DNA from: a bacterium
GTDB lineage: Bacteria; Patescibacteriota; Minisyncoccia; Moranbacterales; GWC2-37-73
Direction: 5' to 3'
Length of the DNA stretch: 34,573 nucleotides
Assembly: GCA_003251635.1 (NCBI GenBank)
Contig: QKEW01000015.1
Coordinates: forward strand, 1-34,573
Positions 3,448-34,573 of this stretch are shown here, one piece after another. A model generated the notes under the pieces. That model did no database searches and had not been told where the DNA came from. It worked only from the letters and a program-made list of their open reading frames with translations. Both the position numbers and the translations under genes were made by a program. Every line of letters begins with the position of its first letter. The first letter of the stretch is position 1.

Positions 3448-6400
3448 TTATTCTTCCACCAAGCTCTCATCCTTAACCAACATCACAAATAACGTTGGGA
3501 TGACAAACAAGGTTAGAAAAGATGAAAGCATCAGACCGAAAATAATCACCGAACCCATCGCCAACCAAGTTTCATTGGAAAGTGTCACCGGCGTGATTCC
3601 GACAATCGTACAAATCGAGGTAATGAAAATGGCTTCCAAACGAGACTTGCCTCCATCCACCACGCTTTCAAAAAATCCGATTCCGCTTTTAATATTAAGA
3701 TTGATTTTATCCACCAAAATGATAGCGTTTTTCACCACAATTCCAAAAAGTGCCACCACTCCGATCAACCCTGGAAAGCTCAAGCTTACTCCGAAAAGTG
3801 CCAAGCCGAAAAACACTCCGATCAAGGCCAATGGGATCGTTACCAAAACAATGAAAGTTTGACGGAAAGAATTGAACTGGATAACCAAGGTCGAGACAAT
3901 CAAAACCAACGCGATGATCATAGCGCGAATGATTGACTGCACCGACTCAACATTTTGTTCATTTTCTCCTCCGTAACTTATTTCATAACCGGCAGGCATT
4001 TTGTAATCAGTAATTTTTTGTTGAAATTGTTTCAAAACTTCGCCGGCATTGGTTTGAGCATTGACGTCAGCTGAAAGCAAAATGACCCTTTTCTGATCAA
4101 TTCGAGTAATTTTTTCAACTGACGGTTGCAAATTGATCTTTGCCACGTCTTTGAGAAAAATTGTTTGACCGGCGTCATTTTTAATTTGCAAGTTTTGCAA
4201 AGACTCCAAATTCGGCAAACTATTTTCGCCAAAGCGCGCCACCACCTGAGTCTCGTCTCCTCCGGAAATTATCTTGGTAACTTCAGTTCCGGAAATAGCC
4301 ATGCGCAGCGTTTGGCTAATATTGGCCGCGCTGATGTTGAAAAGTTTCATCCGATCATAATCCAAATCAAAAACATAGTCAGCCGGTGAATCTTTGAGCG
4401 AGGTGTCCACATTAACAGTTCCGGAAATAGAACTCAAGAATGGTTTTAGATCGTTGGCAATTTGATCCAATACTTCTAAATCATCTCCGGAAATTTGAGC
4501 TTCAAAAGCACTACCGGATGGCGGCCCACCAGCACTAATCACCACAGTAATGGTCGCATCCGTTATATCCGCCAGATCCTGACGCATAACCTGGGCCAAG
4601 TCATAGGATTTGATTTGACGCTCACTTTCATCTTTCAGTTTGATGGTAATTTGAGATTGATTGGAAGAACTGGCATTACTGCCCGATCCAATGACTGTGG
4701 AAATATTCAAAATTTCCGGATATTTCAAAAGTTTCTCCTCAACCTCAGATGTGATTTGAGAAGTTTCTTCAAGTTTCAAGCCCACTGGAGCTTCTACGTT
4801 AACAAAAATTATTTCCGAATCACTAACTGGAAAAAATTCACTCTTGACCACTCCCAGGATCGGAAAAGAAATTGCCATCGCCAAAAGTAAAACCACAGCA
4901 AAAATTGTCAGGCGTCGACTTTTTCGAGTAGTTAAAATTCGACGCAAATATTTTTCATAGACCGGCACAATCCGATCAAAATGTATGATTCCATGAATCA
5001 ACTTGGAAAAGAAATCTTTGTCTTCGTGAAAACCTTGGTTTTTCAATTTCAGCTTAATCAAATCATCATTTCTGGATTCTCGCTGAGCCAATTTTTTGTT
5101 TTCAAGCAAATCTTGTTTGCCTTTTAGCAAATACCAATCAATCAAGCCATAAAAAACCAACACACCGATTGATAAAATTATGCCAGCCGTCCAAAAACTG
5201 GAACCCGCCAAAGAAAAACCGCCCAAAGCCACCAAAGCGACCGCCGCCAAAATCCAAAAAAACATAGCGCGCGTCAACCGCACCCTTTCCAAAACCGCTG
5301 CCAAAGGATGATTAACAAACAAAGCCACGAATAAAGAAGCGATCAGGGTCACTGAAACTGTGATTGGAATTGAACGAATGTAGGAACCGATAATTCCACT
5401 GGCAAAAAGTAGCGGCAAAAAGGCCCACACGGTCGTCAGGGTTGTTGTTAACAAAACTACCTTAAAATCATTGAGCACCAATAAAACCGCTTCTTCCGGT
5501 GTGAATTTTCCGGTATTGAGATATTGCTTAGTCGCACTAACCACCACAATCGCATCATCCACCAAAAGACCCAGCGCTAAAATCAGCGAAATCATCGAAA
5601 GAAAATTCAAACTGATTCCAAAATAAAGCATGACTCCAAAAGTTATAAAAAATACTAATGGAATTGCCAAAGAAGCTACCAATGCCTCTTTTAGACCAAT
5701 AATCAAAAACAAAATTCCAAAAACCAAAATTATGGTCAAAATAAAATCGTGCACCAACTGATCAAAATTTTTCCTAATTTCCTTGGCAGTATCAATGGTG
5801 ATGTCATATTCAATTCCCGCCGGAGCCGCTGCGATCATTTCGTCCAATTTAGTTTTGGCCTGATCAGCTGTTTCAATGATTGATCCCCCGGTTTTTTTGA
5901 CAATATCAATACTGACGCTTTCTTGCGGATTTTCGCCGTTTTTGGAAAAACGCGAAATAGCTGTTTTTTCAATGGCCTTAGCACTAACTTCAGCCACATC
6001 TTTCAAATAAACAATTGCTCCATTTTCACCAGAAAGAATCGGGATATTTTGAATTTCACTAACTTCAAAAAAGCGAGAATCGGTCTTGACGGCATAGTTG
6101 TAACGCTCACCGGAAAAATTACCGGGAGGAATCTGAAGATTAATTGATGAAATTGTCTGATTAACAGCCAACGGTGTCAATCCAAAAAAAGCTAGCTTAT
6201 TATTGTCATAGGCTATTTCATATTCATATTGGTCTCCACCGGAAAGATTGACCTCGCGAACTCCGGAAATTTTTTCCAATTCCTCTTGAACGTCCTTGGC
6301 AAAATCTCTCAGCACGAATCCGTCATAGGGACCCGCAATGGAAACTGAAAAAATCGGAGTGTCATCAACAGAAATTTCCGTTATCATCGGCTCATTGGAA

Positions 6401-33350: not shown

Positions 33351-33357
33351 AGAAAAA

Positions 33358-33384
33358 GGCCGTTTCCCGATTTCGGGGCGTGCC
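33358..33384 (-). terminator. Intrinsic terminator after the 44-residue peptide gene
   Basis: A stem with bulges, GGCACGCCCCG/CGGGAAACGGCC, around loop AAAT, then TTTTT on the minus strand. It is 22 bases below the peptide's stop, so the peptide gene is the last of its transcript. Confidence 0.65.
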
Positions 33385-33406
33385 TTCATTTCATCGAAGT
33401 GTAACC

Positions 33407-33541
33407 TTATTTGCCTTTGGGTGGATTTGCCGGTTTGGGTTTCTGCTGACCACCAGCAGTACCTGTATTTGCCCCACTCATGCCCATAACCTCTTTAGGG
33501 CTCTGAGGGCAACCCACCGAACCAGTATTGGCACCTGTCAT
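33407..33541 (-). CDS. 44-residue peptide with two internal repeats, candidate RiPP precursor
   Basis: A short ORF with a near-perfect ribosome binding site (GGGAGGTGAT, about 7 bases before the ATG). The peptide has two 11-residue repeats, MTGANTGSVGC (1-11) and MSGANTGTAGG (21-31), joined by PQSPKEVMG. It ends in a proline/lysine tail (QQKPKPANPPKGK). It begins 19 bases after the radical SAM fragment's stop on the same strand and is followed by a terminator. The small size, Gly-rich repeats, strong translation signal and radical SAM neighbour fit a modified-peptide precursor. It is not a member of any family I know, and modification is inferred only from context. Confidence 0.7.
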   Translation of the reverse strand: MTGANTGSVGCPQSPKEVMGMSGANTGTAGGQQKPKPANPPKGK

Positions 33542-33560
33542 GAAAATCACCTCCCTTCCT

Positions 33561-34457
33561 TCAAAAATTACGAATTTGATCGAAAACAGATTTTTCTTGC
33601 TCCAAGTACATCAGGCCGAATTCTCTTTTCCATTGCTCGACAGCTTTCGCATACAGCATTTGAAAATTTACTTCACCTCCTTCCTGCACGGTGTATTTTC
33701 TAATATCCTCGCCAGACACCGAAATTCCTCTCCGTAGCTCTTCAAGAGTAAACCCGATAGAATATGGAACATGATAAGAACCATCCGCATCAATAACCCA
33801 TGTTTCACTAGGAGCCACTGATTGCGGATAATAAATAACCCTTAATCCTTCGATATCGAAGCTTATTGATGCTAAATCAACATACGCACTGCTAAAAGCT
33901 TTGAGAAAATTGTCTTTACCAACAACCCTAGCGAGCTTCAGTAGATCATCAACGACATAAATGCGTAAATGAACTGACCTGGTCTTATTTGCCACCATAA
34001 GCTGTCTCCAACTTTCTGCGAATTCTTCTTCAGAAACAGATAAGCATGCAAGTTCTGCCCGCAATGGAGTTATTGTTGTCACGTGCCACTGGAAAATTTC
34101 CCTAGGAAGTATACGACTGGTTTCAAGCAAAGAATTAAAATTTATCTTAGTGAGCGTAAATAACGAATTTACCTTCCCTTCTGTAGTTAGAATTCTATGT
34201 GCATTTTGAATTCCACTATTTGCGATATCAAAGGAAGCCCCACTCGCTCTTTGCTTGTTATGCGTCTCTTTTGGCCCATCAATGGAAATATCCAACCAAT
34301 CGAACTTAAAGCCTGAACTTTCAATACAATCCATATATTGCACATACGAACCATTGTCAATTATTCCAATTTTACAATCTGGTCGTACTCCTCTGAGTTC
34401 TTGTAGCCACTCAAGATGCTTCGGCTTAAATTGTACTTCCCCCATTTCTTTAGACAC
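33561..34457 (-). pseudogene. Radical SAM protein truncated at its N-terminus by an insertion sequence
   Basis: A 298-codon ORF whose sequence begins inside a radical SAM fold. Residues 4-20 (EMGEVQFKPKHLEWLQE) align with the GGE-motif region of the family. CKIGIIDNG and FDWLDISIDGPKETHNKQR match the middle strands (TNG and SIDGxxExHxxxR). The N-terminal CxxxCxxC that holds the [4Fe-4S] cluster and SAM is absent; only three scattered cysteines remain (in PDCKI, MDCIES, ELACLS), so no C-terminal SPASM cluster is seen either. The GTG start overlaps the transposase stop. The intact gene probably began upstream and was cut by the insertion. It lies just before the 44-residue peptide gene. Confidence 0.75.
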
Positions 34458-34573
34458 TAACCTTGTTATCTAAATTGTATTGAATTTGGGCATTTAGAGC
34501 AAACTGCTGAGGTGGCATTTTCAGGGCAGTATGAATTCTAGTGTTGTTGTATTTCCAAACAGTTCGGTAAATT
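34450..34573 (-). mobile_element. 3' end of an insertion-sequence transposase (DDE/rve type, IS3- or IS481-like), partial
   Basis: The reading frame from the window edge encodes about 40 residues, ending at TAA 34452-34450. It includes VWKYNNTRIHTALKMPPQQF, the classic C-terminal 'YNxxRxHxALxxxxPxxF' of rve_3-type integrase cores in IS3 and IS481 elements. The catalytic DDE residues lie outside the window. The element's end probably lies close to 34440-34455, where the radical SAM homology begins abruptly. The IS family and its inverted repeat cannot be fixed without the rest. Confidence 0.75.

Follow-up and report, generated by a model that had tools for sequence, protein, structure and literature searches.

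The window analysed here, the whole stretch of 34,573 nucleotides, is an entire contig (C10) of a 907 kb genome that is assembled in 18 contigs and 99.9% complete. Near its end, on the minus strand, lies an open reading frame of 44 residues (MTGANTGSVGCPQSPKEVMGMSGANTGTAGGQQKPKPANPPKGK, 33407-33541), which an ORF list places at these coordinates and which has homologous micro-ORFs beside intact enzymes elsewhere. Its ATG follows the Shine-Dalgarno sequence (SD) GGAGGTGA (33547-33554), a contiguous match of 9 nt, and the frame starts 19 nt past the stop of a radical SAM reading frame at 33561. A motif scan locates two near-identical repeat units in the peptide, MTGANTGSVGC (33509-33541) and MSGANTGTAGG (33449-33481). 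The gene, its strong ribosome binding site and both repeats are thus as described in an earlier, sequence-only reading of this DNA. Just upstream of the second unit, in frame, the codons hold an SD-like AAAGAGG and an ATG (SD score 5), so that the unit may retain a former or working second start. The peptide ends in a basic Pro/Lys-rich tail (QQKPKPANPPKGK, 33410-33448), recognised by peptide comparison and similar to the tails of most family peptides. Below the gene the fold shows a hairpin and then a T-run (33356-33386). The terminator proposed here is probable and the structure is of the right kind, but folding in the window is weak (z -1.4), which makes the assignment plausible yet weak alone; the hairpins 3' of the peptide genes in three relatives (L022, L024, L025) are strong (z -8.4, -5.8 and -4.1).

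The reading frame ahead of the peptide gene (33561-34457, minus strand) had been taken for a radical SAM gene. Searched alone it gives a weak radical SAM match (Pfam E 0.083) and a best NCBIfam E of 1.4e-6, far under the cut-off. Alignment with four intact relatives (44-55% identity) identifies 33561-34431 as the C-terminal remnant of a radical SAM enzyme, of which about 92 N-terminal residues including CxxxCxxC are missing. Because the remnant lacks this part, its identity is weak from the window alone and rests on the intact relatives. The remnant is limited to 33561-34431 since the remaining bases up to the contig end (34432-34573, minus strand) belong to the end of an insertion sequence, consisting of a transposase C-terminus and the terminal TGTACTTCCCCC. 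The identical stretch of about 142 bp, ending in GTACA, recurs with different flanks at four other contig ends of the genome; the five ends sharing it are both ends of C1, one each of C3 and C13, and that of the window. A multicopy element fragments this assembly, and the contig break falls in the repeat. The enzyme gene of the window is cut by an insertion sequence, as had been suggested. A search of the rest of the assembly found no N-terminal half of the enzyme and no ortholog of the TrmB-like gene that accompanies related loci (closest TrmB, 31%), and the upstream half of the locus is therefore lost or outside the assembly. On contig C3, at about 5.2-6.6 kb, the same genome has another locus (L033) with TrmB, radical SAM and micropeptide genes, this one intact. 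This second system, with the peptide MASVAGSKGGVKKPPKKPKKEK, occupies 1444-2571 and 2573-2641 of L033; the SD of its peptide is encoded within the last enzyme codons, and its enzyme has four C-terminal Cys.

We searched 142 related genomes with the window remnant and found four close full-length enzymes (L011-L014, equal to L022-L025 with longer flanks), 44-55% identical to the remnant. All four contain CxxxCxxC, and in all four a micro-ORF with an SD lies 4-14 nt downstream of the enzyme gene. The micropeptides are MSGANTGSKGSRNGGANTGSVGS in L022, MSGANTGSKGSRGGANTGSVGS in L023 and MSGANTGSAGIQQDSKPVKLIKSVKKIKAGKPIKK in L024; L025, from a Candidatus Moraniibacteriota MAG, encodes MGGANTGSTGK and then, in a second gene, MDSGASTGSAGK. 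Starts in this group include MSGANTGSKG and MSGANTGSAG. The prediction that related genomes carry the intact pair is borne out by these GANTG micropeptides. The orthologous peptide genes of L022 and L023 differ by 11 synonymous changes, no replacement and one codon indel, a pattern from which selection evidently acts on the micropeptide at the protein level.

More distant enzymes, at 31-40% identity and some of them in another class of the phylum, are preceded by the peptide gene. Here the peptides start with MAGANTGSAG, MAGANAGS or MAGANSGS, the motif being identical or changed in one or two residues. They comprise MAGANTGSAGAQRSPKKLPKTRSKTKKK (L073), MAGANAGSTFRGKPQAPTKIKPPPKPRHPSK (L074), MAGANSGSVHKEETMPATNIGSTRREEAMPVSNIGSAKKDRSRPPAKPRRPKPRKRTNAPSS (L026) and, in L027, the two genes MNMNLGSKNRPKKKAKKGRKCK and MNLNLGSKNRPKKKKSKKKKR, for which the SD is not clear; L099 is the same genome as L027 and was counted as no independent case. 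Homologous micropeptides next to radical SAM genes, the support that the sequence-only reading had asked for, are thus found at this distance as well. At 21-30% enzyme identity we assign the micropeptides MINNSQKVKNNASNCGSKGGELENRKK (L041) and, with less certainty, MKIKKLKNSLQSNKAKWELANAGTSGDTMDSRKKNHK (L042). In an outer group of 12-20% identity, only the layout, a G-S-x-G core and a mostly basic or Pro/Arg-rich tail remain. To it belong MANQLDDVVEAGSKGMEPPRPR (L019), MPFGAGSKGEKAPRPRK (L017), MALGIEGSAGK... (L018, 1110-1265) and the peptide of L033; these resemblances are suggestive, and we regard the group as tentative kin of the core family. In L018 (from 1267) and L083 (from 1399) the N-terminus of the enzyme is itself peptide-like (MAVGFEGSAGS and MALGWSGSNGG), as though the substrate had been joined to its enzyme.

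Across the family, the peptides are 11-62 residues long and almost all open with the same short motif, with one to three motif units and one or two genes per locus, and the peptide gene lies before or after the enzyme gene depending on the lineage while the peptide core is kept. A six-frame scan of 302 kb with the seven-residue motif [TSAG]GA[NS][TSA]G[ST] gave 12 matches, all 12 inside family micro-ORFs. In 166 kb, 12 matches were seen against a mean of 0.15 in first-order Markov resamples; ten of them are distinct, since two loci are represented twice. The narrower [TS]GANTG[ST]xG occurred four times in the 166 kb against 0.0 in such resamples. A micro-ORF with an SD score of at least 5 and the wider motif accompanies 10 of 15 family enzymes, 1 of 112 control genes and none of 48 other radical SAM genes, counts that are descriptive because the wider motif was derived from the family itself. 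The control radical SAM loci (weak matches L015, L016, L020, L021, L051-L072 and others) represent other families. Pfam and NCBIfam scans of ten peptides returned no match, and the motif [TS]GANTG[ST] does mark a new peptide family, as had been proposed. The repeat, in contrast, does not define it, since some peptides hold one unit and one locus has two micro-ORFs. In L025 the two motif units are two separate genes, and in L026, less clearly in the window, an internal repeat ATG is preceded by an in-frame SD-like stretch (AAGGAGGAAACG-ATG, GGAGGGAAGAGGCA-ATG, AAAGAGGTTATGGGC-ATG). The simplest reading is that the repeats would be tandem micro-ORFs that became fused in some lineages, which would make the motif an N-terminal one.

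The motif begins at residue 2-3 of the peptide and the shortest peptides have 11-12 residues; comparing motif position and peptide lengths, we found neither a leader nor a clear recognition sequence. Neither Cys nor an aromatic residue, on which known cross-linking usually acts, is conserved in the motif. Most members have Ser, Thr, Ala, Gly or Pro at residue 2, and a small residue at this position permits removal of the initiator Met. A Rossmann reading of TGANTGxG, which resembles the TGxxxGxG loop of short-chain dehydrogenases, was rejected as the peptides are too small for such a fold.

Intact enzymes reach or come near the Pfam Radical_SAM cut-off. None reaches a curated NCBIfam cut-off: scores are about 19-44 bits versus 310-725 bits for the SPASM/twitch RiPP maturases, the best being 43.6 bits against a cut-off of 425 (TIGR04133). 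With profile A4, built from many family members, the family scores E below 1e-87 and other radical SAM proteins E above 1e-42; L082, which has a TrmB neighbour, falls in the gap between them. The three radical SAM cysteines are the only Cys conserved in the core family. The L042 enzyme has three Cys in total, and Cys195 of L022 is replaced by Ser in the window copy and has no counterpart in distant members. As conserved Cys are limited to CxxxCxxC, a single [4Fe-4S] cluster is predicted, with neither SPASM nor a cysteine hydrogen donor. A SPASM signature or Cys-rich C-terminal domain is absent from the core family, as opposed to L033 with its C-terminal Cys. An RRE gave no match in Pfam or NCBIfam, and a structure search matched the radical SAM barrel only. 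The structure model of an intact enzyme is a radical SAM barrel (pLDDT 88) which resembles DesII, anSME, viperin, SkfB and MoaA in the PDB at TM of about 0.5-0.6; judged by the model, these matches reflect the barrel and point to no specific relative. By profile, the closest PDB entry is the peptide epimerase YydG, with a weak match (E 7e-4) that is no more than a hint. The cysteine pattern led us to reject both a plain epimerase and a SPASM assignment.

A divergently oriented TrmB-like gene (PF01978, E 5e-15 in L011) flanks 14 of 16 family loci, and beside other radical SAM genes it occurs at none of 37 loci. It is absent at L027 and L073. Its structure model is too poor for use (pLDDT 58). 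In L023 the TrmB-like gene (5051-5814) is read in two overlapping frames, by frameshift or sequencing error, with enzyme and peptide intact. Six further TrmB-like genes are clustered on contig C16 of the window's genome (67.9-86.7 kb and 149-152 kb), and a profile search found no family radical SAM gene near these clusters. Among the family loci that were read by eye, we saw no transporter, protease or second enzyme common to them. Compared with the earlier reading, the loci add leaderless peptides, an enzyme carrying no SPASM or RRE signature in the searches made, and a TrmB-like gene which, by its position, is part of the locus.

The core family is present in 5 of 131 genomes of the order, and even samples drawn from the class and the phylum seldom contain it. 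Among 85k species genomes, in a scan that hinges on two short patterns, all relatives of at least 31% identity come from Patescibacteria or from uncultured bacteria coinciding with the loci above. Viral contigs and plasmids held no enzyme relatives. As the peptides are too short for gene callers, the family has likely been missed in annotation. In the literature searched we found no paper on such a radical SAM micropeptide system.

Sequence comparison firmly establishes the conserved pairing of the two genes, the motif with its start context, selection on the peptide at the protein level, the radical SAM motif of the relatives and the cut by an insertion sequence in the window. On these grounds we consider it fairly probable that the loci form a new family in which leaderless micropeptides are the substrates of radical SAM enzymes, and that the window holds a broken copy. 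Each locus would combine a single-cluster radical SAM enzyme with a divergent TrmB-like regulator and at least one leaderless micropeptide, the putative substrate of the adjoining enzyme. Given the small second residue, the peptide probably loses its initiator Met and then starts with a sequence such as [S/T/A/G]GANTGSxG. This N-terminal core would be what the enzyme binds, the basic Pro/Lys-rich tail possibly aiding recognition or localisation, and one residue within G-A-N-x-G-[S/T] may then receive a radical modification, its site and type being conjectural. Transcription of the locus may be controlled by TrmB. Several features count against a substrate role. Many radical SAM RiPP loci have a leader, an RRE, SPASM, a transporter or a protease, and the family loci have no leader, recognised RRE, SPASM signature or conserved transporter or protease; peptides of 11-12 residues offer little for recognition; and the motif is devoid of conserved Cys and aromatic residues. 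A bolder extension, which we hold to be speculative and rather unlikely, sees one enzyme, one peptide and one regulator as a minimal signalling circuit: the N-terminus of the leaderless micropeptide would be modified by chemistry outside the known classes, with one cluster, no Cys of the enzyme as donor and a G-A-N-x-G-S core, and the TrmB-like regulator would sense the product.

Alternatively, the micropeptide could stay unmodified and serve as a small subunit or activator of the radical SAM enzyme, or as a ligand of the TrmB-like regulator. The constant trio of regulator, enzyme and peptide, with neither exporter nor protease, would suit such a partner, and the motif at the enzyme N-termini of L018 and L083 would fit a structural element; that fusion fits a tethered substrate equally, however, and the variation in tail, unit number and gene number around a near-fixed core fits a substrate better, so that we judge an unmodified partner unlikely. 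The peptide might also be consumed, like PqqA and MftA, to yield a small cofactor or signal of which it is the precursor or scaffold. The very short conserved core, the lack of an exporter, the several copies per locus and the adjoining regulator speak for this; but the surroundings hold no conserved peptidase or second biosynthetic enzyme, and PqqA and MftA each come with a leader and an RRE partner, which leaves the idea quite improbable. That the conserved stretch is a non-coding RNA or DNA element (attenuator, operator), as its location near start codons and terminators might suggest, is disfavoured as hardly credible and was rejected, because synonymous sites vary while residues hold, start and SD are kept, the position shifts between upstream and downstream of the enzyme gene as no fixed RNA element would, and an Rfam search gave no match.

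The genomes of Patescibacteria are tiny, and few biosynthetic pathways are known from them. If the micropeptides are indeed substrates, an 11-residue leaderless peptide and its single-cluster enzyme would make a simple model of peptide recognition by radical SAM enzymes. The motif is a direct handle for finding and testing further members.

Among known systems, the epipeptides (YydF/YydG, EpeX/EpeE) likewise have a small peptide gene adjoining a radical SAM enzyme, and YydG is the weak match (E 7e-4) mentioned above. In YydG an enzyme Cys is the hydrogen donor and a second cluster takes part, and the peptide it acts on carries a leader (PMC5682303, PMC8326336). The present family differs in having no conserved Cys beyond CxxxCxxC, and thus not the catalytic Cys of peptide epimerases such as YydG and PoyD, and in having no leader. 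The proteusin epimerases (PoyD, PlpD, OspD) resemble the family, as predicted here, in having the radical SAM cluster alone, and leader-independent activity has been reported for PoyD (PMC8326336). The present motif is, like polytheonamide cores, rich in Asn, Thr, Ala and Gly. In proteusin epimerases one Cys is critical, and an RRE is present at the C-terminus (PMC8326336). The family has no such conserved Cys and no recognised RRE. SPASM/twitch maturases (sactipeptide, ranthipeptide, streptide, WgkB, DynA) share the radical SAM fold and motif and give weak NCBIfam matches, but the core family lacks their Cys-rich C-terminal domain and its peptide core lacks Cys and aromatic residues. In L075 (1-859), two tandem radical SAM genes adjoin the gene of a Patescibacterial protein built largely of His/Ser/Cys repeats (HSQHSQHSSCH...), perhaps a system of the His-Xaa-Ser kind. 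Repeat-peptide radical SAM systems, among them His-Xaa-Ser and Gly-rich repeat (GrrM), resemble the present family in placing short repeated motifs in a peptide beside a radical SAM gene; motif and enzyme family differ, however, and the present repeats have the look of tandem micro-ORFs, fused or separate, each with an SD and ATG of its own. Of the features general to radical SAM RiPP systems, the leader or recognition sequence was not found in the family peptides. The linkage of a short peptide gene to a radical SAM enzyme across lineages is present, as is CxxxCxxC in the intact relatives, lost in the window copy by the insertion-sequence cut.
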